Assembly: GCF_026151205.1 (NCBI RefSeq) | Contig: NC_087080.1 | Span: 13,277,337-13,341,336, forward strand | Direction of reading: 5' to 3' | Length of the DNA: 64,000 bases | DNA from: Bolinopsis microptera | Taxonomy: Eukaryota > Ctenophora > Tentaculata > Lobata > Bolinopsidae | Shown here: piece after piece, positions 20,601-64,000 of the stretch | Layout of the letters: the number at the start of each line of letters is the position of its first letter | Position numbering within the stretch: the first letter of the stretch is position 1 | The notes under the pieces: model-generated | The model's input: the letters and a program-made list of their open reading frames with translations, nothing else | What the model was told of the DNA's origin: nothing | The model's database searches: none | Translations under genes and position numbers: made by a program

Positions 20601-23600
20601 TGATTATCTACAATTCATCAAGTCAGTGTCGTGAGTCTTACTGAGGAGCAGGGGCACATCAAAACATGTGCGCAATTCTCAGTTCATCTTGATACGGGCG
20701 CTATAATAGGTTCAGCGCACTATAAGTTATAGCCCTACACTACGTGCTATAACCCTATGCGTATTCTCACGCATATTCTTGTAACTCACCACTCACCAGG
20801 CATCAAGAGCCACGTGCCTGACACCAAACAATATATTTCTAACTGCAAGAAAGAGAGACCAAAAAAACCACGACAATCAACAAAAACTAAAAAAGCGATT
20901 AAAGCGACTGAGGGAGGGCTCCACTATATTGTATTTTTTAGCTAAAGTTTATATATCATCACTCAATAAGTGGTAGCGGCAGGGCTCACGTTACGAGTAG
21001 GATCTATATATAAAGTTCCTGCCGAGGTCTGAATTGATTTAGTGAACATATTATATTTTATATAATACACCGATGTTCAGCTGGGGAGGCAAGTCGTTAG
21101 CCGCGCGCTGCGAGAGGGGGGTTAGAACTATACTGCAACCTCTCTCTCCTGGTTCGCAACACCTGGCGTACGCGCTGTTCACTAGTCTCCCCCACTGCGG
21201 GTCGGTGCGCTGGTTCGAGCATATAATAATATCCTGGTGGTGCTATTTGTATAGCGACAGTGCACCAGGTCATAGCGCGCTGCGGCAGCGCCCAGTTAGT
21301 AACTTAAGCTAGTGAGTTAGGATCTCTTACAATGGATTGCTCTCAGCTCACCCGCTGTGTGCGCACCAGGCCCAACAGGGCCTATCATTCTGCAGTCCTA
21401 ATTGCTGTTGTAGTATGCCTTAGAATTTCGATTAATCGCCTGCGGCCTGGTTGCTATCCATGGTTGCCACCACCATTACCCCACGGGAATTTCGTTACCA
21501 TCAGCCGAAATTCGGTTCCATTAAACGGCTAAAGATGTGTTGGGATAATTCTGATTACTACTCAGGTAGCTAACGAAATACGGTGAACTATACTTTTAAG
21601 AGGGGCCTGATCATTAACACCCTAACTCTATTACCTGCTATGCGCATATATGATATAGTACACATACTTAGTTCGTTTATAATAAGGTAACTATTGTAAC
21701 AGTACTACTCCTTAACTTGTTTATGATAAATGCTATTACTGTTACAGCAAACCAATTACCAAGCAGACAAATGACCACCCCTCTGCTGGATAATGGTATG
21801 GAACGCAATAATGCATGCCCCCTACAAAATAATTCCGACTAAGGACCAGCTAGTTATCGGGTGACCCTGTTGAAACATTTTTGAGGGTCGAAGAAGGGGA
21901 TGATCGCTGATCAGGTGGCGTTTTTCTCATAAATCCATTAAATATCTCTCGGACCACCGCATTTTTGTCCGTTCTCAAATGCCAAATCTGATGTTGTAGA
22001 TTACTTGAACCTTAGTAAGAATAGTGTAGTATGCACAGTTCCTAGATGGACAATGCTAGTGGTTTCATAACAGTGTGATGGAAGCAGATGTTGCAAAACG
22101 TGGCGAGGAGGCGGGATATAGCACTTAGCACAATGGTCAAGTGTTTTGTACAGTGCAGGGGATCTCTCGACTGGCAGAGTTCGTAAAAAATACATGGAAA
22201 AAAATACAAAAGTCAACATAATATGATTCCATTTATCTGTAAAATCCGCTGAATCACGAACGTTTGCCATCAGAGTTCAGACATATCGGTCACTTATATC
22301 GTCTAATTGCCATGCTCAAGACAATAATACAAACACACATACTAGAAACATAACTTACGGACGAAACTTACTGGGAAGTTATTCAGGACATTTGTCTTCG
22401 AGGAAGGATGGAGGACATTTTAGGTGCTGAGCGCCATGCTAGGGAGAGATAATTAGTTAATAAGTTAATTGGTCATTAAAATTGCGAGGTTTCATTGTCA
22501 ACGAACATTAGTGTTTTTTTTTCGAGGAAACAATTTTCTGTTGCAACACAATGAATAATGATCAATTGCAATGGTGACATAGTATATTAATGAGAATTAA
22601 GATGTATGCAAGATTAAGTTGACAAGAAAACGATCATGTTCCTATCAGCAAAAACAAAATAATGAAATTGTAATGTTAAAACAATTATAAACAGCAGATG
22701 CTTCAATCACCGTCTAAATTTGAGAGTATCACCTGTTGTAAGGTTACACTTGAAACTTAACGTTTCGAAAATAAACAAATTCCGTATCCACTTCTCGCGA
22801 TCAAATGAATTAAACCAAACTTTTAAGTGCACGAATTTTTCAGAAGAAATATGAAGATATCATGACTGGCGTGGATATTGGATAAAAATGCTCGACTAAC
22901 CACAAAGCTAACATAATATTAGTTCCAGGTTCCTATATCAGAGTATTGGGGGAGATTTAGGAGGTTAATTCATCAAATGTCTGGGATATCAATTAACAGC
23001 AAACTATAGGCAGGATTTGGTAAAATGGTATCGGAAATTCAGTTCCTTAACTTATTATAGGCTTCATCAAATTTATGATTGACTAAGCCATCAACAAATA
23101 TTATTATGAACGGATAAAATTCAATGATTAAACAATCAGCGGGTTATCTAAATTGACGTAAACGTCTCGCCAGCTCTATATAAAAATAACAGCTTACTGC
23201 ATGACTTAACAGATAGGTAACCATAAGATGTTAAAACAAATAACATCTCACTCGAAGGATTACACAAGAGATGAAAATACACGTGTCACAACGTTACGAA
23301 GATAAACCTAAAATATTAACCAGGAAGTAACCCTGTATAATACACATATTTCAAGTGAGCGTACTAAGCAGGAAAAACCTATCCAGTATATATAAATATA
23401 TATATATTTACATGCACATATGTTCTGACTCGCATACCCTGGATGAATATATTATATTATATGTGTTTTTAATTTGTGAAGTGAGGCTAATAACTGGGTA
23501 AAGGGTCGTGATATCAAAGGGGTTGCCGATTTGTATGTGGGCATACTGTATGTTTACTTTCAGACGTAAAGGAGGGAGCGGGGAGGTTCACTTTCGTTAC

Positions 23601-24033
23601 TTCAGAGGGCATCTTTACCCTTACATATTGTTTATCTTTCATAAAATTGTGCTGCGCAAAGTTTTATTAGCTCCCCGCTGTTTTATCGTTCTATCTATAT
23701 ATTACAATTTTTGCTTTTAAAATGATAATTTGCGCGATTTCAAGTTTCAGGTTTCGAAAATTTACGTGGAAGTTTGAATTTTGACGAAATTTTGAAAATG
23801 TAGCATAGAATATTATAGTCCAAAACCAATTTCTTTAAAGAACACATTCGTCCCAGCCATTTCATGAATAAGTAAAAACAATGTATGGTTAGAAATTATT
23901 AATAATTTAATAATTAAAATCGAACTTGTTAAGCTCTAAAATTAAAACCTAAAAGTTATATCATTAACTTGAAGCTAAAAAATAATTACACGATGACATA
24001 ATATACATTTTTGTGTTTACCTTCTCGGCAGAT
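17682..24033. other. Intergenic or 5' non-coding region, no recognised gene
   Basis: The short open frames here resemble no family I know. It should contain the promoter and 5' UTR exon(s) of the tandem-FYR gene on the minus strand. Good minus-strand donor motifs (GTAAGTATG near 18616; GTAAGTTTC and GTAAGTTATG near 22350-22370) are candidate UTR-exon ends, but no exon can be fixed. A GA run is at 20021-20059, and the segment 21090-21300 is locally GC-rich. Confidence 0.4.
20021..20059. repeat. GA microsatellite
   Basis: An imperfect (GA)n run with a few C or G interruptions, in non-coding sequence upstream of the tandem-FYR gene. Confidence 0.85.
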
Positions 24034-24864
24034 TTAAAAATACAAGACGTAAACTAGTCGAAACAGACTGGGATCCTTTATGATGATCTGCTCGCAAAAC
24101 CCCTTCTCGTCACTCCTGTATCTGTTGTGGTGACCTGACACCACCAAAACTTTGAATACCAGCAAACAGTCCCGTCCATACTGAAAACTGAACTCTGGAT
24201 ACTCTGAAAAGTAGCACCCATCTCCAAACCTCCGTCCATGTTTAACAGGGTGGTTTGGATCGAGATTGTTCCTGATGATACTGGGAACATTGGTTAAAGC
24301 TGTGGCGTGGTAAGCAAATATTTCTTTGTGGTGTGTGTGATTATGAATCAGTCTGTTCTTTGAAGAGGTATAATTTGCCTCGATAAATAAGTTTTGAACT
24401 AGCCCGATCACTTTCACTCTCTTTAGTTTCGAGTATTTGTCATCTCGTGATCTCTTTTGACAGTGGCCATCAAACAGAGCTAGAGCGGTTCGTACACCGT
24501 CGTATTTCGTGTTTCCGATGTCTCTTAGGTCAACAGAATCAACATCAAATTTAGTCTCTCCAATTTTATCGATAAGATATTTCAAGTGCAACTCATCAAA
24601 ACTGTATAATTCCTTTGCCCGATCAACAGGTTTTGATCTGTCATCCTTTGTATCCATACAGATGCAATCATGACTCGGGTCAGTTTTCAACTTGGACTTC
24701 ACCCCCGATCCAGAAGATCGGACTTTGCTACTAAGGTTTAAGAGTTGCATCTCGTAAACTTTCCTGGTAGTACCAGTTATAGGTCCAGGTTGAGTGCCAT
24801 ATTCTCTTAGCTTCTCCCTTAGTTCACGGTCAGACAACTTATAAATATCTCCAGAGGTCAACAT
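24034..24864 (-). CDS. LEM-domain / PARP catalytic-domain fusion protein
   Basis: A 276-residue protein from one uninterrupted frame. Residues 4-44 match the LEM domain, including LSDRELREKLREYG followed by GPITGTTRKVYEMQL. LEM domains bind BAF and so tie proteins to chromatin at the nuclear lamina. A basic linker and a helical region (about 85-175) follow. Residues 180-276 look like an ADP-ribosyltransferase core of the PARP type: H186 in the YHATA motif, Y218 in FGDGCYFSE with FQYGRD after it, and E258 in FCEQIII, which falls where PARP1 has its catalytic Glu. The H-Y-E triad of active PARPs thus appears present. The catalytic region is short and no transmembrane segment is visible. It lies 383 bp downstream of INTS14 on the same strand. 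I know of no described protein with this pairing; the function (lamina-tethered ADP-ribosylation) is inference. Confidence 0.85.
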   Translation of the reverse strand: MLTSGDIYKLSDRELREKLREYGTQPGPITGTTRKVYEMQLLNLSSKVRSSGSGVKSKLKTDPSHDCICMDTKDDRSKPVDRAKELYSFDELHLKYLIDKIGETKFDVDSVDLRDIGNTKYDGVRTALALFDGHCQKRSRDDKYSKLKRVKVIGLVQNLFIEANYTSSKNRLIHNHTHHKEIFAYHATALTNVPSIIRNNLDPNHPVKHGRRFGDGCYFSEYPEFSFQYGRDCLLVFKVLVVSGHHNRYRSDEKGFCEQIIIKDPSLFRLVYVLYF

Positions 24865-25247
24865 CAGTCCTTATTATAAAGCTATAAGGTAATAAGTTAA
24901 GAAAATTAACACGCTCACGACAACAGAGAAAAACGTTGGGGAAACAAAGGAACCGTAATTTTTAAATGCCATTGGATGGCAAAAATTACTACGACAAATT
25001 TTTAAATCACAATAATCCACGTAATGCTAATGAAGAGAATTAAAGGCATAAAAGTTACATTAAATCAATATTCATGTGAATTGTGAAATATTATGTCGAA
25101 GATCAAAGATAAAAATGAAATGATATCACGGCTCAGGTATCCCAAGTTGGCCTTTCTTCCATGATAATATAAATTCGTCGGAATTTGGACAAATACAATA
25201 GAACTAGCTACTTTCCAAGTATTAACAATATTCAGTTCATCTAATTA
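24865..25247. other. Spacer between INTS14 and LEM-PARP genes
   Basis: 383 bp of AT-rich sequence that must hold the 3' UTR of INTS14 and the upstream region of the LEM-PARP gene, both on the minus strand. No repeat or further gene is seen. Confidence 0.5.
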
Positions 25248-26582
25248 TCACTTTATAATTTTTGCTGGGTCAGGCTCATCCCGAAGCTGAGCAATGCAAT
25301 TATCCAATATCTCAGTATTTTCTGGAGTTTTCTCTTTTTCCAGCAGCTGACACAACACGTCCATCATATCAGTGAAGCCATAGAAAAGAATGCTCCTTCT
25401 CACCTTGTTCAACTCCTTCAGAAACATGGCTGATCCTTTATCCGGGAGTCTCTTGGCGTACCTAACTACTTTCATGATGTTCTGTTTCAGGGTGCTGGAT
25501 TTTATCCAGACCATCCCGCTACCTGATTTGTTGTCGTAACTGTTACTGTATTCTTCCTTGTACGGCATGTTCGACTGCTTATCCACACTAACTAGTCTTT
25601 TGAGTCCAAGGAAGTTAGGGTTGCCAAGCCAAGAGAAAGCATTTGGAGCAATAATGGAGAAGACTAAATTAGATTTTTTAAGATTTCGCTCCGATTTAGG
25701 GAGGTGACTAGACACAACTCCAAACCAGCCCAAGCCTATATCCACAATAGCTACACAATCCTTAGCCCGGAGACCTTCATTGAGAATAACTCTCAAGTCT
25801 GGTGTCTTGGAGGTCACTTTAACTGGTGACCGGGGTCCCGCGTGTAACAGAACGTGTCTGGAAACATATGGTGGGTTGTGAAGATCAGTGGCGGGGATGA
25901 AGCCGTGTATTCTCAAGGTAGCAGGGAATGTCTTGGGAGTGGGTTTCAGAGTGATACCAGCAAGATGCGCCACATCAGGTGAGGGTGAAATAGCCACACT
26001 GGTAGTTTGATGTCCAAACCACAGAGCCGCTTCAAACTTAGAGTAGTGATCCAGCATGATACTCTCGAATATTCTATCTACTGAATCTTTACCTAGGACA
26101 GGCCCCGGATAAAGCTTGCCCTTTAAGTTGCACGATCTCAAAAAAGTCTGAGCCCTGTTGTTAACATCAGTAGTGGGAGTCAAGGCAACTAAGGACATGG
26201 AGCACCCATAAGGGAACCCTTCAATAGAGTCCTTGAGAGCATTAGGAATCTTATCAGTTATAAGGACAATGTGAGTAGAAGTGAGCACGTTCCATTGCTG
26301 GCATTCTTTGAGACACAGCTCCATAGTTTCCTTCATACAGGTCTTGTCCTGACATTCAATCTCTGATAAACTGTTTGTTAGCTGAGTGGTGTTTTTTGTG
26401 AATTCCACCAGTATTGAGGGCGTGTGGGAAAATGTTATGATCTCGATGAATTCGTTAGGGACCACAGTTTGAAGATTAGAAAAGAAGCTTTTTAGGGATG
26501 AAAGGGAATGGTCCAGAAGAGATTCCTCTGCTGCTTTCTGTTCCATTGAAAGAGAAACATCGATACATATTATAGTCGGCAT
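25248..26582 (-). CDS. INTS14: Integrator complex subunit 14 (VWA9)
   Basis: A 444-residue protein from one frame. Residues 1-190 form a von Willebrand A domain starting MPTIICIDVSLSM, with the DxSxS MIDAS motif at D8-S10-S12. The conserved DKTC stretch near 97 and IVLITD near 125 also match the family. The middle part (about 195-375) matches the INTS14 beta-barrel region, with SRHVLLHA, VAIVDIGLGWFGVVSS and WLGNPN. The C-terminal helical part has MVWIKSS, RYAKRLPDKG and ELNKVRRS. INTS14 works with INTS13 and INTS10 in the nuclear Integrator complex, which cleaves snRNA and other nascent transcripts. The protein is shorter than the human one (518 residues), mostly by losing loops and tail. 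A 97-nt 5' UTR intron is likely: acceptor TTTTTATAG one base before the ATG, donor GTAAGTGCAG at 26680. Confidence 0.93.
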   Translation of the reverse strand: MPTIICIDVSLSMEQKAAEESLLDHSLSSLKSFFSNLQTVVPNEFIEIITFSHTPSILVEFTKNTTQLTNSLSEIECQDKTCMKETMELCLKECQQWNVLTSTHIVLITDKIPNALKDSIEGFPYGCSMSLVALTPTTDVNNRAQTFLRSCNLKGKLYPGPVLGKDSVDRIFESIMLDHYSKFEAALWFGHQTTSVAISPSPDVAHLAGITLKPTPKTFPATLRIHGFIPATDLHNPPYVSRHVLLHAGPRSPVKVTSKTPDLRVILNEGLRAKDCVAIVDIGLGWFGVVSSHLPKSERNLKKSNLVFSIIAPNAFSWLGNPNFLGLKRLVSVDKQSNMPYKEEYSNSYDNKSGSGMVWIKSSTLKQNIMKVVRYAKRLPDKGSAMFLKELNKVRRSILFYGFTDMMDVLCQLLEKEKTPENTEILDNCIAQLRDEPDPAKIIK

Positions 26583-27284: not shown

Positions 27285-28311
27285 TCATGTTATAACCAAA
27301 TTAAAATAACCTACGATACGCCTACAGATCAAAATTGAAACAATAGATAAAAACAATACAGCGGATTCCAACCATTCCGCGTCTTTACATTCGTTCAAAA
27401 CCGGAAAACAGCGACACAGGAATTCTTTCAAGATGTTTCTGAAATTCGATATGGCCTGACTGGTATCAGCAGTATTTCCACCATCATAGTCCCCCATCTT
27501 CCATGTTACATAGATAGGGTAATGATCGCTGATCTTCTTCGCCATATCATTCGTTATTTCTCCATCAAACAGGTCTATAGCCGGGTGGGTGAAATGACGG
27601 GGGTCCAGGTCACCACACAGCACTATCCTGTCGTAGTAACAGGTTGTCGTTTTAGAGACTGTCGTGTCCAAATCATTGACTCCCAGCCATTTGAACCTGT
27701 CATCAGATGTCATGAGCAGGTCATGGTACTTTCTACTGGAGAGGTAGCTACAGTCAGCGTTCATGTCACCCATGAATATCCCCTGAGGAGGGTAGCCCTG
27801 GGACACAGCGTACTCGTACGCAGCAGGAAACTCGTTCAGTTCTTGGACCACATCGTCAGGATCCACGTGGACTCCAAAGACAGTGAAGTCGGCGAACTGG
27901 TGATCTGGTGAGGTGAAGTGAGCGATTAGGGGGGGGTCTACTGAACAGATTTCTGGGGTTGTCAAATACTGTCTGCTTCTTGACACTTAGTTTCAAGGTA
28001 TCAAATATTACAGCGTACTGTTCTTTGTACGAGGAGCTGCCCAGTCGGGGACTAACAATGAGATCCAGTGTGGAGCTCTCAGCTTGGCAATCTTGGATAA
28101 AGTTAAAAATCATCGTCTCGGAAACGTCTTTGATCTCTTGGATGAGGATGAGGTCATACTTTAAAACGACGGTTACAAGGTGATTCCTCAGAGTTAAGTT
28201 GGAGTACTTAGCTTTACCAAATGTTTGTACGTTGAATGCTCCTATCTTGAGGTTGCAGTACGAGGTGGAGATGATTAGGATTAGCTGAAGTAGGGCATTG
28301 TTCCTCTTCAT
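27285..28311 (-). pseudogene. DNase I-like endonuclease with a single frameshift
   Basis: Two overlapping minus-strand frames together cover a DNase I-type protein of about 340 residues. The first (from 28311) starts with a signal peptide (MKRNNALLQLILIISTSYC), then KIGAFNVQTFG, LIQEIKD with catalytic-type E59, and SSYKEQYAVIFDTL. The second frame continues with TVFGVHVDP (catalytic-type His), GDMNADCSY, CYYDRIV and SDHYPIYVTWK. The break is exactly at a run of eight C (27929-27936, G on plus): one base fewer restores the family-like FSRPP...HFTSP context. The gene is otherwise undamaged, so an assembly or sequencing slip, or a polymorphism, is as likely as a dead gene. After the nuclease comes an extra hydrophobic C-terminal segment (SAVLFLSIVSILI), which could be a membrane anchor. 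The family hydrolyses DNA outside the cell or in the secretory route. Confidence 0.85.
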
Positions 28312-32110: not shown

Positions 32111-33026
<916 letters not shown>

Positions 33027-56884: not shown

Positions 56885-59800
56885 AGGAGATAGAAGATCT
56901 GAAGAAGAAGCTCCAGCTTACAGGTTTAATATTAATGATGAATAGCCCAAATTCAAGCTTACCATACTACGAAAAGAATATAAACATCAGGTCAGATACC
57001 ATAATTCTGTTACCTTAACACCTGGCCTAGCCTTAACATATTTCTTGTTCACAGATGGGGACCAGAAAGCTTATTATGAGAGTTCTGAAATAACGATGAA
57101 CAAGAACAAGGACACAATTGCAAAGCTGAGGATGAGTAACAAGAAGCTCCATCAAGAGCTAGCCGTGGCTAAGGGTCAGGCTGGTGATGAGGAAGTTATC
57201 TTGAGTGCATTCAACGCTTCAAGCCGAAATGAAGTTTCTCTTGTTAGAAGTGGAATTCTTAGCCAGGTTTTCTTGACTCAAATAAACTTTAAAGCTGTGC
57301 AAATTTGTTGAAATAAACGAATAGATAAAGTCAAATAACATACATCAATTTATTGATAAATATTCTCCCCACTTATGTAAGAAATAATACTTATTAAGTT
57401 ATTATCAAACTTTACACAAATCCAAAGTAGTTACTAGGAACATCCTAAAGACCTGATAAGTCTACTTAAAAGACTTGTAGAACTGAAAACTTACTATAAA
57501 TACAAAAAATGGAACTTAAAACTGAACTTATCAAAATCAAAAATTATGCAAAAAATTGAACTTAAAACTGAAATTATCGAACAAACAAATTTAAAATAAA
57601 TTTCTCCACAATTGGCGGTTCGAGGCTAAATACCTTAAGTCTGTCAAGTTGTCACTATTATTCAAATTAATCTTTCTTTTATTCAAATCGTCTAAAATAG
57701 TTTTAAAAATATTACATTGATGTCTACCAATCCTTCCCCTCATATTTGACATACTATCAACAGCAAAATTTAGAGCTAGTTGTGGTGGTGAGTTGCAGTC
57801 GCTACGAAGAATGTGCCCAAACATTTTCCAGCGGGATTTATGAACTCTCTCTGAAAGTGGAGTTACATTGCAACGAGCATACAAGTCCTTGTTGCTGATG
57901 ATGCGGGGATAGGTCATGTTGATGATACGTCTTAGATGTTTGCGTTGACACACATCAACTTTATTGATAATGTTCTGTGGAGCTGCCCAGCTGTTACAGT
58001 TGTACAATAAAACAGGGGTAACAAATGCTTCATACAGCTTGATTTTTACAGGAAGAGAAATGCGGGATTTCTCTGCCCATACCTTGCTGTATTTCTCAAA
58101 GGCAACGTAAGCAAGGATGCATCGGCGAGAGATATCAGCCTTACTGCAGAGCTTGGATCCAAGAGAAATAGTGTTGCGCCAGGGCTCTCTGTTCTTCACG
58201 GGTTCACCCTTGGCGTCTACCTCGTCCTTATCTGCAATGTAGAAGTGGACATGTTCTGTTTTGTCCTCGTTCACAAACAGGTTCCATTCTTCAAGGATCT
58301 CCTTACATATGGGTAGCATTTCTTTAAGAGTTTCCTCATCCTCATCTGCAAAATCGCCATCGTCGGCGTATTCCCATTCAATAGGCATGAGGGTCTCGGG
58401 GTTGAACGGTGGGTTAGGCCGAATGGTAATCACTACTGCACGGAAGTGGTACAAAGCTCCAGCAAAGTACAGTGTGAAGAATGCACCAGATGCAGCATCA
58501 CCTTGAAACGAACCCTCGGATGTTTCAAACTCTAAAGAAATGGTGTTGTTGATTTTTATCCTCAATTTGGTGTTGGAGAGCAAGTATCTCGCCAAACGAA
58601 TGTCATCCTCACAACAACCAGCATCAGCCAAAAGATCCAGGATAACTGATCTCTTGATGGTATCGAAGGCCGAGCTCATGTCGATTCCCATCTTGTGGAA
58701 CTCCCATCTCTTCTCTTTCACAACAGAAATCAGAATTCGTTGAGTCCAGACAATATTGGCACAACTATGACCAGCCTTGTAGGCATTTTGCCATGGTCCT
58801 GTGTACTCTGCAATTTGTCTTTGAATTCTGTGTAGAGTAATCAAGGAGAGCAGTTTCCTAGTTCCATTCAGAAGGCAAAGAGGTCTGAGGCTCTTTAGAG
58901 GTCCTTTTGGTTTCCCTGGCTTCTGAAGAGGGGTTAGAAACCCTTCCGTGAAAGAGGGTACATGCTCATGTACTTCGAATGATCGATTAATGAGACATGC
59001 ATATTGCTGGAAGAATACAGGTGGTGCGTACTTCAGCAGCTCGTTAGGAATCTCATCAGGACCTACTGCTTTTCCATTTTTCAACTTTGAAGCAGCATAT
59101 TGGACTTCTAAGGAAGTTATAGGAGTATTCAGAGGACGTGGGAGTCCAGTGAAAGGTACCAAAGGAGGGTCTGAGCTGGTGTAGTGATTTTTAAACCACT
59201 CTCTAATGATACTTGCTTTCATATCGTCACTTGCAACTAGCTGATTTTCAGAGTTGAAGACAGATATTGGCTCTGACTCTTTGTTGGCAGCAAGAGCTCT
59301 GGTAGCCTCGAACATCCTCTTCGTGTCATCTGCAGCGTTGATGGTGTCAGCTAGTTGGTTGGCTAGAGCTGTCTCTAGCACTTTAAGACGTTTATTGATA
59401 TCGTTCTTGAGTTTATTGATACGTTTTCTCAATACTGTCCTGTCTCTAACTGAATTGTCGTTCAGTTCTTGTAAAAGTTTGTGTCTCTCGTCAGACATAT
59501 TACATACATGCTGATCTGATGAATGATGATGTCTTTGGGTTTTCTTCTTGACACCCACAGTGTTAGAGGCTGAAGACTTGATAGTTTCAAACAGCTGTTC
59601 GAATCCTGTCTTAGTGTCAGCGGAAGGTGGAAGACTGTCAATTTGCTGAGTGACAGTTTGCTGGTACTGATCTTGTAGTTCCTTGTTACAAACCAGCGAT
59701 GTCGTGTTGTACCTTTTAGCAGCTGATGTACTGTTTCGGTATAACTTAGTTTGCTGCCTCAGGTCTATGGTAGCTTTTACAATCTTATGATCAGAATGTA

Positions 59801-62779
59801 GTTTAGCTCCTGCATAGGCCCTTGCATCATTGAGAAAAACAGTGCTGCGTGACCGGCATAAAACATAATCAATCTGAGAAAAATAAGGGCGACTTCTTTT
59901 GGTCTTCTTGTCTTTCACCCAACCAGTTCTTGTGGTTATATGACGACTGGAATGACGAAATGCAGTGTTTGCAGCAAACAAACCATTAGAAACAAGAAAA
60001 TCCAATAATCTCCCACCATTTTCATTTCGTCTTCCAACGCCATGCCTTCCAGTGTTCTTATGAAGGCCATTTTGAAAGTCATGATCAGACCTTTTGCCAA
60101 GTTTGGCATTGAAATCTCCTAGGATCCAGATTTCATGTCTTGCAGGCACATTAATTGCTTCCTGAAGCTCACAGTAAAACTGGTCAGTAGCAGCCGGATT
60201 TGATAAAGTTTTTGGGTTGGTTGGACTGTAACAGTTCACGATTCGCATTTTGCATGGTGGTTTGTTAACAAACTTGGATGGAATAAAAAAGTCCATGAAA
60301 GCAACTCGATCGCTGATCTGATGAAATGAACGGAAATAATGATTTACACGAGCGTTGATTAAGAAACCCAGTCCACCATGACGTCCTGTCTTCTGATCAA
60401 ACAAAAGGAGGCGATGATTTCCTGGTAGTTTCTTATCCTCAAACTGACAAATTTTAGTCTCTTGAATCCCTATAATGTCCAAGTCATACCTGTCACAGTC
60501 GTTAGCAAGCAAGCACTGCTTGTCTGTCTTCGTCAAACCTCGAACATTCCAAGTAGCAAAGCCGAGAAGAGCAATTGGTAACAAGGATTACGGTGTCCAG
60601 TTCTACAGCGATCCTTCGCGTAGGGGTAGATAGTCTGGTTGCAGCAACCATGCGAGTTCATCACGAACTACACGCCATCCTAAAAAATTATTATTATTAT
60701 TAAGTATAAGGAACTATAGAAGATGCTGTTGAAATAGCAATAAATTCTAATTGTTTGTCTTAAAGTTGTTCCAGAGTTTTAAAATTTAGCCATTCATTAT
60801 GTACAGTGAATTAGTCTTCTATTGTAATTATGATATTGAGGATCAATGGCCTCTTAAATTTAAAATATCTTAAATTCTCTCGTGTTACACCAAAATTGTC
60901 ACAGGAGAAGGTGATAACAAAGTATGACCAGAAAGTGTGTGAGCTGATTAAACAGTATAACGCTCTTTGTCACAGAGCTAATTCCAAACAGAAGAAAATA
61001 CAGCAACTCCAGGTTTACTTCATATTATTTTGAAATCACATCTTGATTCTTTTGAAAGTTCTCTACATATTTCGCAAATATCAATTCGACTAGCTAGATC
61101 CTAACCTAATACTCTAGATTTTGTTCCATATTTAGACAGAGCTGATGCAAATGAAGGACGATGCACGAGTAGCAGAGCAGGGTGCAGCAGGAGAGAGTGA
61201 GGGTGCACAATCACTGAGAGTGCTGGAGAATCGCCTTGATAAGGCTAACATCAAGTGTGTCGAGGCTAACCATATCAACAACACCTACAAACAGATTTTA
61301 ACTAAACTGCAAGATGTAAGCGGTTTTTATCAAGCTGCGATTTTAATCTTCGGCCTCGATTTTTACTCGCTGCCTGAAAAAGTCTCACTAAAAAGACGTA
61401 ACAATGACTTGTTACCTATAATTGTAAAGAGTTACAAGTATTAAGCGTCAATATTTGTACACAGGAACGCTTGGAGTTCGATAACCATGTTGACAAACTT
61501 CAAATGATGATAAAGAACAAAAAGAAGGAGTATCAGGAGATTTTGTCAATGAACAAGGACGCTGAGCTTGCAAAGGACAGTGCCAAGGATGAGCTGACAT
61601 ACCAGGTACATTCGAGTTTTTATTTTTGTTTGTTGCTAAATTTAGGGCCCTAGATTACATGAAGTTGTAACTTGTACCTCAATATGTCTACTCTTGTTGT
61701 CTGTAAATAGTCTTCGATTATTTTATGATAACTTTTGATTTCTCTTCAGGATGGAAAACTGCAACAAGACAAGAAGGAAAGGGAAAAGGCCCTGTTCGAA
61801 TACAGAAAACAAGCTGACGAGAAGAAGAACCATGCTGAGAAAGTTGAAAAGAGGGTAAGTCGAATCTCGAACATAAATTATACGTCTTATTGAAAGATTT
61901 TAGACTTAGAATTGAAATGTGTACCAAATACTCTGAGAAATATAACTCAAGTTAATATTCTCACAGATGGCGAGGTCAAGTATACACACTGAGGAAGTCG
62001 CTGGAGTAGACAAGGAAAAGAAACTGATCTCTGGAGAGGAGCAGGAAAGGAAGATAATGGGATACGAGGAGGCGATGCACAAAATTAAGGAGGCTACTGG
62101 TGTCTCTGATATTCAGGTATCGCGGTGTCGTGAAATAAATAACTTAACGTTTATATTCCATATATTTTGTTTCTTGTTTTTGTCCTAGTAGTTCCTCACG
62201 ATCAGTTTAATAATAACGTTGGATGGAATGTAGGAATGGCTTTTCCACAATTTGTCTTACAGGAAGTGGTTCAAAGATTCCTGCTACAAGGAGAGACTCA
62301 GAAACATCTCGAGAAACTGAAGTTCGATAACGAGAAGACTCTTCTCAGACTCCGAGAGGAGAAGGTAAAATATATATTAAAATGCACGTTCATCATTTCT
62401 TTTCCCTTTACAGCAACTTATCAGACACTTCACCGTGCAATATTATGCCTTTACTCCAAGACTCTCAGTAAACTGAGAAACTAGTACAGTTCATTAGTTC
62501 AGTGCGACCTTAACGCTGTTTTAAATACTATACATGACTATATCTGATTTCATTCAACTCCAGGCCAAATTCCAAGCTGAATTTGAAAATATGAAGTACT
62601 CTGGAGAAGCCAAGTTGTCCAGTGGACAGAGAATCCTGGAGGACATGCAGGCTAAACTGGAGGAATGTGACGGAAATTCCACTGATAGCAGACTCAAACT
62701 GGAAAGAATGGATAGAATCTTACTCAACGTAAAGGCTGGAATCGAGCATCTTTCTGACAAACTCATTTCTCTTAAACTT
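56885..62779 (+). CDS. ODAD3: Outer dynein arm docking complex subunit 3 (CCDC151), partial
   Basis: Nine exons join in phase: 56885-56923, 57055-57266, 60905-61012, 61136-61315, 61465-61605, 61750-61854, 61967-62116, 62263-62364 and 62564-62779. The product is almost entirely coiled coil and follows the ODAD3 order throughout: KKKLQLTDGDQKAYYESSE near the start, LRVLENRLDKANIKCVEANH, YRKQADEKKNHAEKVEKR, EEAMHKIKEATGVSDIQ, EVVQRFLLQGET with LKFDNEKTLLRLREEK, ENMKYSGEAKL and GIEHLSDKLISLKL at the end. ODAD3 is part of the docking complex that fixes outer dynein arms to doublet microtubules in motile cilia. The first exon(s), with the start codon, lie left of 56885 and were not found. The C-terminal exons lie beyond 62779, probably past the window. 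Intron 2 (57267-60904) holds an antisense LINE; the other introns are 81-231 bp. Confidence 0.92.
57300..60700 (-). mobile_element. Non-LTR retrotransposon (APE-type LINE) inserted in ODAD3 intron 2
   Basis: The element surrounds the reverse transcriptase ORF. On the minus strand about 100 nt of leader precede the ORF and start near an (AAT)n run at about 60690. About 200-290 nt of AT-rich 3' sequence follow, with two copies of a CAGTTTTAAGTTC...TTTTTTG motif. Neither end is sharply resolved and no target duplication was identified. The missing ORF1 means it is either 5'-truncated or of a single-ORF family. Confidence 0.8.
57591..60584 (-). CDS. LINE ORF2: endonuclease and reverse transcriptase, intact
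   Basis: A 997-residue uninterrupted frame. The N-terminal 280 residues are an APE-type endonuclease: ATWNVRGL (N13), GIQETKI (E42), ILGDFNAKLG (D157, N159) and LHSDHKIVKA (H266). The reverse transcriptase lies at about 480-790, with KLKNGKAVGPDEIPNELLKY, LKSLRPLCLLNGTRKLLSLI, DMSSAFDTI, the SFQGDAASG turn and the catalytic EWEYADD at about 737-742. The C-terminal part has the RWKMFGHILRSD motif seen in many RTE/CR1-like elements. No RNase H or zinc knuckle was noticed. No ORF1 lies upstream. The protein copies its own RNA at nicked target sites. It sits antisense in ODAD3 intron 2, so host transcription opposes it. Confidence 0.93.
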   Translation of the reverse strand: MLPIALLGFATWNVRGLTKTDKQCLLANDCDRYDLDIIGIQETKICQFEDKKLPGNHRLLLFDQKTGRHGGLGFLINARVNHYFRSFHQISDRVAFMDFFIPSKFVNKPPCKMRIVNCYSPTNPKTLSNPAATDQFYCELQEAINVPARHEIWILGDFNAKLGKRSDHDFQNGLHKNTGRHGVGRRNENGGRLLDFLVSNGLFAANTAFRHSSRHITTRTGWVKDKKTKRSRPYFSQIDYVLCRSRSTVFLNDARAYAGAKLHSDHKIVKATIDLRQQTKLYRNSTSAAKRYNTTSLVCNKELQDQYQQTVTQQIDSLPPSADTKTGFEQLFETIKSSASNTVGVKKKTQRHHHSSDQHVCNMSDERHKLLQELNDNSVRDRTVLRKRINKLKNDINKRLKVLETALANQLADTINAADDTKRMFEATRALAANKESEPISVFNSENQLVASDDMKASIIREWFKNHYTSSDPPLVPFTGLPRPLNTPITSLEVQYAASKLKNGKAVGPDEIPNELLKYAPPVFFQQYACLINRSFEVHEHVPSFTEGFLTPLQKPGKPKGPLKSLRPLCLLNGTRKLLSLITLHRIQRQIAEYTGPWQNAYKAGHSCANIVWTQRILISVVKEKRWEFHKMGIDMSSAFDTIKRSVILDLLADAGCCEDDIRLARYLLSNTKLRIKINNTISLEFETSEGSFQGDAASGAFFTLYFAGALYHFRAVVITIRPNPPFNPETLMPIEWEYADDGDFADEDEETLKEMLPICKEILEEWNLFVNEDKTEHVHFYIADKDEVDAKGEPVKNREPWRNTISLGSKLCSKADISRRCILAYVAFEKYSKVWAEKSRISLPVKIKLYEAFVTPVLLYNCNSWAAPQNIINKVDVCQRKHLRRIINMTYPRIISNKDLYARCNVTPLSERVHKSRWKMFGHILRSDCNSPPQLALNFAVDSMSNMRGRIGRHQCNIFKTILDDLNKRKINLNNSDNLTDLRYLASNRQLWRNLF

Positions 62780-63065: not shown

Positions 63066-64000
63066 TCAAGGGTACTGCCGAACTGATGAACTTCGTTTCC
63101 AACACAGAGTCAGAAGTTTCTTCTTAGTGAAATCTCTGAACGTTGGGTTGACTACCAAATATATAAACGGATTAATCCAAGATGATAGAAAGCATATTGC
63201 CCAAGCTACTTCGTCGAACGCCAGTCGTGTTGCGATTATTGGCATAACAGAGATAAAGTAAGGAATAATTGAAATCAAGAACCCGGTCGTTACGAAAACA
63301 ACTGCCAGCAAGCTCTTAATGTTTATTGCTGAATTTGATTTAATGATCGCAAAGATCACTAAAACAGTGTTTAAAGCAACTAATGTAACGCAAGGTAGTG
63401 CATTAAAAATGCTGATAATCGTGAAATGAATAATCTCCCTTGTGTCGCCTAATTTATCAGGTCCTTCATATCTCACATAAGCATTGCCTAATTCTGAGGC
63501 TCCAAGATACCATTTGTCACTCCAGTGTTGACTGATGTGTAAAAAACCATCTTGAAGTCCGTACGCAATCTAGAGTGCTGGTACTATGCTGACCAAAACC
63601 GTAGATATAGTTACGCTGATTCTTTGACGTCTTGTAGTATCCAAGTTCCTCAAAGGAAATACACATCTCATCAACTTGTTGAGAGACAAGACATTCACAA
63701 GGAAAAGATTAGCCACAAAGAACGTAAACAGGTAGCATCCAAAAACGTCATAGAAGGTGCTCCCAAAGACTTGAGCGTGGAACAGTTTCCAATATTGAAT
63801 GAGGATCATAGGCATCAGAACCAAGACACAGTTACAAATATCCGCTACTGCTAGGTTCTTGATTATCCAGATTGACATTTTGTCCAGCTTTATGGCACTG
63901 TGACCAATGGTGGCATAAAGGACAAACTGTATTTCCAAAAATGCCCAAAATAAAGCAGATCGGTTCCCATATAAACTGAAATATATGCTCGAAAAACATT
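63066..64000 (-). pseudogene. Rhodopsin-class GPCR, decayed, 5' end beyond window
   Basis: The minus strand encodes a seven-helix receptor. Helix 1 (FILGIFGNTV, with the class A G-N) ends at about 63930, where the frame shifts by one base in a short T run. Helix 2 has NLAVAD, the loop Cys before helix 3 is in FGCYLFTF, and after helix 3 the usual DRY is replaced by NKL (SLNKLMRCVFPLR). Helix 4 ends VSIVPAL and is followed by an in-frame TAG at 63570-63572. The same frame then continues through helices 5 and 6 to helix 7 with INPFIYLVV, and a short basic tail ends at 63066. The frameshift, the stop and the lost DRY together point to a pseudogene. The ligand is unknown. It lies antisense to ODAD3, probably in a later intron. 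Confidence 0.82.

Follow-up and report, generated by a model that had tools for sequence, protein, structure and literature searches.

A single open reading frame in the genome of the ctenophore Bolinopsis microptera joins a LEM domain to a PARP-type ADP-ribosyltransferase domain, a new architecture built from two known domains. The gene lies on the minus strand at 24034..24864 of the window, by which we mean the whole 64,000-nucleotide stretch of DNA analysed here, and runs from ATG to stop over 276 amino acids. An earlier note on this DNA had read both domains in one uninterrupted frame and proposed checking them against the Pfam LEM and PARP profiles, by structure prediction and by a search for the same two-domain order elsewhere. 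Each of these approaches bears the architecture out, and we regard it as confirmed. The explanation that we favor, and to which we give about an even chance, is that the protein is a soluble, BAF-guided LEM-domain mono-ADP-ribosyltransferase of the ctenophore, perhaps directed against foreign or mobile DNA.

The LEM domain spans residues 6-44 (..PGPITGTTRKVYEMQLL..; 24733..24849, minus strand) and is recognized by PF03020 with an E value of 2.6e-16 and 59.4 bits, against a curated cut-off of 24. Single-sequence searches also find it, matching LAP2 (1h9f, E 1.5e-7) and emerin (6.7e-4), with LAP2 isoform alpha as the best match, and in the predicted model this region contains helices at residues 4-8, 12-21 and 34-51. 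The PARP-type domain occupies about residues 97-276 (24037..24576, minus strand). PF00644 matches residues 152-232 with an E value of 4.5e-9 and 36.5 bits, above its curated cut-off of 26.7, and the match covers profile positions 27-102 of 199, the first half only. Single-sequence searches with the PARP part gave weak matches to tankyrases, PARP15, PARP14 and PARP12, the best at 0.0078. By profile and in the predicted model, which is of medium confidence (mean pLDDT 66.6, pTM 0.55), the C-terminal domain has a PARP/ART fold; residues 224-228 and 253-256, near the active site, fall below a pLDDT of 50, and a model of the homologue P0002 reached a mean pLDDT of 67.8 and a pTM of 0.48. A search of NCBIfam with the window protein gave one chance-level match, while Rfam and a tRNA scan returned no matches.

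In a homologue search over 5.8 billion proteins, we recovered nine matches, to which a search using the alignment added three and one using P0006 added none, for a total of 12. Six of them (P0001-P0006, 41-95% identical to the window protein) share the LEM-PARP architecture, and the other six (P0007-P0012) have a PARP match only. P0001 is 95% identical, has the same length of 276 aa and carries one LEM; P0002-P0006 (51-60% and 41% identity) each carry two LEMs and the PARP domain. The second LEM is absent from the window copy and P0001, where alignment A3 has a gap at residues 77/78 (24633..24634, minus strand). In a tree of 17 PARP domains, comprising the window protein, the 12 homologues and four paralogues from the genome, the seven LEM-PARPs form one clade with support of 100/99, and thus one fusion event explains all seven. 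We infer that the LEM-PARP homologues are ctenophore proteins; three of the six (P0003, P0005 and P0006) are on contigs of 1.4-2.6 kb, which would fit transcripts in size. Because the domain order is kept in six homologues, one of identical length, it is next to impossible that two unrelated adjoining coding stretches are read through here by chance, and we ruled out this artefact. In regard to viruses, a scan of viral contigs with alignment A2 gave six stretches that fit a pattern, none of them confirmed, and a Foldseek search of viral models gave, among the matches listed, two of 151 at E <=0.001 that are named ADP-ribosyltransferase or PARP.

The earlier note had also proposed an H-Y-E catalytic triad, and two of its three residues stand. 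H186 (AYHAT; 24307..24309, minus strand) and Y218 (GCYFSE; 24211..24213, minus strand) are invariant in all 13 aligned proteins and are 32 residues apart, a spacing that the available part of Table 2 of PMC2848248 also gives for PARP7, PARP12 (H564/Y596) and PARP14 (H1682/Y1714). E258 (24091..24093, minus strand), however, is probably one residue short of the true third position; residue counts and the structural alignment favor Q259 (24088..24090, minus strand), so that the triad most likely reads H-Y-Q, and E258 was rejected as the probable catalytic Glu. Of the 17 sequences compared over their C-terminal 30 residues, 12 have Glu at position 258, four have Gln and one has Arg; at position 259, 15 have Gln, one has Glu and one has Met. 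The last aligned residue in both models, those of the window protein and P0002, pairs with residue 677 of PARP12, 1004 of PARP10, 893 of PARP13 and 1799 of PARP14, and the third residues published in the accessible text of PMC2848248 (PARP12 I660, PARP10 I987, PARP13 V876, PARP14 L1782) each lie 17 before it. In the window protein, counting 17 back from the last aligned pair leads to Q259, and in P0002 it leads to Q348, on the assumption that the last hairpin has no insertion. Q259 is therefore probable as the third residue rather than proven, because a one-residue insertion in that hairpin would restore E258. A profile of the C-terminal 60 residues, built from nine sequences, had no match in the PDB at E values up to 10.

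The class of the domain can be judged from the same region. Y218 and Q259 are 41 residues apart; in the passages available of PMC2848248, the corresponding distance is 64 residues in PARP12 and 92 in PARP1 (Y896 to E988), and Table 2 lists a beta4-beta5 loop of 37 residues for human PARP1. By this indirect measure, the long beta4-beta5 loop of PAR polymerases is missing from the window protein, and the short stretch appears to fit mono-transferases better than PAR polymerases. Poly-ADP-ribose polymerase activity was rejected as the probable function. PARP12 is the best profile match (3.4e-13), with PARP13, 14, 15 and the tankyrases among the other top profile matches. PARP12 also came first in one structural comparison, tankyrase 2 was top in Foldseek, and tankyrase-1 ranked above PARP12 by single sequence. 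By profile, then, the domain would be closest to PARP12, a mono-ADP-ribosyltransferase type, and overall it appears to resemble the short-loop mono-ADP-ribosyltransferases (PARP12, 10, 13 and 14) more than the PAR polymerases. PARP12, PARP10 and PARP14 share with it the ART fold and, probably, a third position without Glu, and PARP12 and PARP14 share the H-Y spacing of 32, but the window protein differs in its LEM partner, in its probable Gln at the third position and in the shorter stretch from Tyr to that position. PARP12 itself is joined to zinc fingers and WWE, and PARP14 to macrodomains.

Activity is uncertain because Gln at the third position matches no human PARP in the table passage of PMC2848248. 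The PARP-type domain could instead be a pseudo-enzyme that has lost ADP-ribose transfer and acts as a binding module, like PARP13 or the pseudo-PARP of TASOR, with the LEM domain targeting BAF. We consider this somewhat unlikely, given that all 13 aligned proteins keep the NAD-contacting H186 and Y218 while PARP13 has lost its triad His, and that PARP10, 12 and 14 are without the Glu, yet are classed as known or predicted mono-transferases (both from the part of PMC2848248 at hand).

Under the favored reading of a BAF-guided mono-ADP-ribosyltransferase, the LEM domain would dock the protein on DNA-bound BAF. Binding to BAF is plausible from the conserved LEM motif and the presence of BAF exons in the genome, where PF02961 has two match sites on a single contig, both of them split in two, with a best E value of 2.1e-18. 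The genome also encodes a LEM2/MAN1-like LEM+MSC protein at two loci, Pfam-checked at one. Once docked, the C-terminal ART domain of the PARP12/10/14 kind may transfer single ADP-ribose units, as PARP10 does, and by analogy with PARP10 the substrate may lend catalytic help. Likely targets would be BAF itself, other BAF-associated proteins or the bound DNA. We judge defense against foreign or mobile DNA to be the likeliest setting, because related PARPs are fused to ZNFX1-type helicases and several mobile-element families carry pieces of the LEM-PARP gene. The defense role proposed in the earlier note thus appears to gain indirect support from these kin and copies, although kinship and mobile-element copies as a basis have other explanations. 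As for the repair and lamina roles that the note also raised, our results speak neither for nor against them.

Five further PARP loci in the genome match the window protein. Two of them, 42% and 43% identical to it (L029 and L030) and among its best PARP matches in the genome, end in ..LFKPQ[YF]VL[YR]F. Each is a single long frame with ZNFX1 and AAA_11/AAA_12 helicase matches and a C-terminal PARP: 1,948 aa at L029:2080-7923 (G000 C11:2721379-2727222) and 1,922 aa at L030:1755-7520 (G000 C11:2693754-2699519). They are like the window protein in having a related C-terminal PARP domain in the same genome, and unlike it in their size and their helicase and ZNFX1 domains, with no LEM match in Pfam. 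We found no description of ZNFX1 joined to a PARP catalytic domain in the open-access literature. PARP matches were also seen in frames of 724 aa (L031) and 514 aa (L004/L040).

Fragments of the gene occur at many other places in the genome. A search of the 264.65-Mb assembly (232 contigs) gave at least 77 matches at no fewer than 35 loci, namely the window gene, the five PARP loci, the two loci of LEM2/MAN1-like type and 27 that contain incomplete or disrupted pieces, and the window gene is the sole intact full-length copy among them. We retrieved 26 of the 27 piece loci and assigned them to families by shared flanks and arrangement. Family 1 comprises 11 loci, ten of them retrieved and one, C10:10250715, placed by its terminus; family 2 comprises nine, with flanks compared in three and the others placed by a like arrangement of pieces; family 3 comprises six; and L025 was left unassigned. 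When window positions 22801-25250 were compared by blastn with L001-L028 and with L025, L026 and L045-L048, all matches to the retrieved element copies fell within 24026..24934 (minus strand for the gene), that is, from about 70 bp before the ATG through 8 bp after the stop.

Maverick/Polinton elements are recognized by terminal inverted repeats starting with AG and by 6-bp target-site duplications. Family 1 termini begin AGTAGTAT, and in all four family 1 loci with both termini seen (L010, L011, L012 and L013) we found such termini together with 6-bp duplications; the left end of L009 could not be placed. One element of family 1 is about 20.6 kb long, and a 3-kb piece of it (L052) contains a 551-aa frame in which polymerase-B-like motifs can be picked out by eye but which has no meaningful match in Pfam, PHROGs, NCBIfam or the PDB. 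One family 2 locus adjoins a frame matching adenovirus endoprotease (1.7e-6). We infer that the elements are Maverick/Polinton-like, most firmly for the 11 loci of family 1, which we take to be a single such family. In family 3, five of the six loci have termini that start with AGTAGATATAAT, and L048 differs slightly. A search of the open-access literature on ctenophores and Polinton found nothing on such elements.

Five family 1 loci (L009-L012 and L015) that carry the 5' part of LEM-PARP have a 308-aa frame that combines C2H2 and coiled coil. Eight of the ten retrieved family 1 copies (L009-L015 and L046) have a 37-nt stretch identical to the window gene, the whole piece being 76-79% alike. 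At the nine loci L016-L024, LEM-PARP residues 141-227 and 19-124 stand head to head with one shared joint; eight of these are 90-94% identical to the window gene and L024 is more diverged.

These copies raise the alternative that LEM-PARP was at first, or for a long time, a passenger gene of Maverick/Polinton-like elements, used for example to control BAF, and that the window copy is a survivor retained by the host while element copies decayed later. The 27 other piece loci (11, nine and six in families 1, 2 and 3), the 6-bp target-site duplications in all four family 1 elements with both termini, and L026, where an almost complete copy sits some 0.5 kb in from the end of a family 1 element, are in keeping with it. 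So are the values of dN/dS against the window gene, which lie at 0.10-0.53 in the ten retrieved members of family 1 and at 0.26-0.35 in L006-L008 and L028, four of the six in family 3, if read, informally, as below neutral decay since capture. The values for the short L047 and L048 pieces were 0-0.07, or undefined where dS is zero, those for L025 were 0.43-0.69 and those for family 2 were 0.28-0.72. All are rough, since both branches are mixed and some rest on 15-40 codons, but the low ones suggest a period of coding-gene evolution in some of the element copies or in their donors. We nevertheless hold a cargo origin to be unlikely. We found no intact element copy; the window gene lies 383 bp downstream of the INTS14 frame; neither of the two terminus patterns occurs in the window at up to four mismatches; and family 2, the nearest in DNA (mostly 90-94%), has dN/dS up to 0.72. 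Furthermore, the element pieces are much closer to the window protein than are the homologues (51-60% and 41% identity), and the LEM-PARP fusion is thus older than the element copies.

In family 1, the piece is present as an inverted pair in seven of the 11 loci, and all four that were tested (L009, L011, L012 and L015) contain palindromes whose longest arms are 1.05-2.44 kb and 100% complementary, with several nested inverted pairs in L012 and L015. The palindromes retain exact matches of 37 nt to the window gene, and those in the other families of elements are as long as 68 nt. One could imagine an arms race, in which LEM-PARP is a BAF-guided effector that ADP-ribosylates foreign or mobile DNA-protein complexes and the Maverick/Polinton-like elements, once bearing functional copies, now carry near-perfect LEM-half palindromes whose transcripts form hairpins that give rise to small RNAs targeting the host gene. 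This elaborated scenario is speculative and, in our view, quite improbable as a whole.

A further alternative, unconnected with foreign DNA, places mono-ADP-ribosylation at BAF-bound chromatin during DNA repair or the reassembly of the nucleus. The consulted portions of two papers offer precedents: oxidative lesions favor an association of BAF with PARP1 that keeps the enzyme from binding NAD+ (PMC6890647), and in Caenorhabditis elegans the LEM nuclease LEM-3, which is without a transmembrane domain, acts with BAF-1 in the damage response (PMC3285610). However, the PARP domain is not nearest to the DNA-damage enzyme PARP1, its best profiles being PARP12, 13, 14, 15 and the tankyrases, and its kin in the genome include the ZNFX1 fusions, which leave a purely chromatin-based role doubtful. 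For the defense setting that we prefer, there is precedent in the accessible parts of reports that BAF and LEM proteins take part in defense against cytoplasmic DNA (PMC7378220) and that ANKLE2 restricts vaccinia via BAF, using its LEM domain (PMC12724269).

Among known systems, LEM-3 is the nearest comparison in plan, as it likewise joins a LEM domain to an enzyme without a transmembrane domain; its enzyme is a GIY-YIG nuclease in the available text of PMC3285610, whereas here it is of ADP-ribosyltransferase type, and LEM-PARP would be the ADP-ribosylating counterpart. LAP2alpha, the best LEM match, is alike in having a LEM domain without a membrane segment. The BAF-PARP1 interaction also ties BAF to an ADP-ribosyltransferase, but it acts in trans and is inhibitory (PMC6890647, in part), whereas here a predicted BAF binder lies within the enzyme. 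The earlier note knew of no described protein with both LEM and PARP, and our search of the open-access literature, by titles and the starts of abstracts, found none. The available part of a PARP survey (PMC4245714) does not mention LEM domains, 'LEM' occurring there only within an author name, and those of PMC11377751 and PMC12221973 contain nothing bearing on a LEM-PARP fusion.

The window contains several other features. Upstream of LEM-PARP on the same strand is an INTS14 homologue in a single 444-aa frame (25248-26582, minus strand). Beyond it lies an endonuclease/exonuclease-like gene, DNase I-like by eye (27285-28311, minus strand). It is read in two overlapping frames, each of which matches Exo_endo_phos weakly (0.03), and an intron or a frame break may separate them. 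An array of 457 copies of the AG dinucleotide with 99% matches occupies 32111-33024, and a 997-aa non-LTR retrotransposon frame with endonuclease and reverse transcriptase matches occupies 57591-60584 (minus strand). A piece of a rhodopsin-type receptor gene at 63570-63938 (minus strand) matches 7tm_1 at 2.7e-5, below the curated cut-off, and the frame beside it at 63066-63476 has no Pfam match. Elsewhere in the genome, a frame at L035:1954-3069 that matches GDSL esterase and, weakly, 2OG-Fe(II) oxygenase stands beside an endonuclease-like frame and is perhaps a LINE ORF1.

In human cells ADP-ribosylation and BAF are linked via separate proteins, whereas LEM-PARP joins a predicted BAF docking domain to a predicted mono-transferase, and it thus offers a compact system in which one can test whether BAF-coated DNA carries an ADP-ribose mark. 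The probable Gln at the third triad position raises the question of how far a PARP active site can vary and still work. With its ctenophore host, its ZNFX1-PARP kin and its pieces in mobile elements, the LEM-PARP gene bears on genome defense in early animals.
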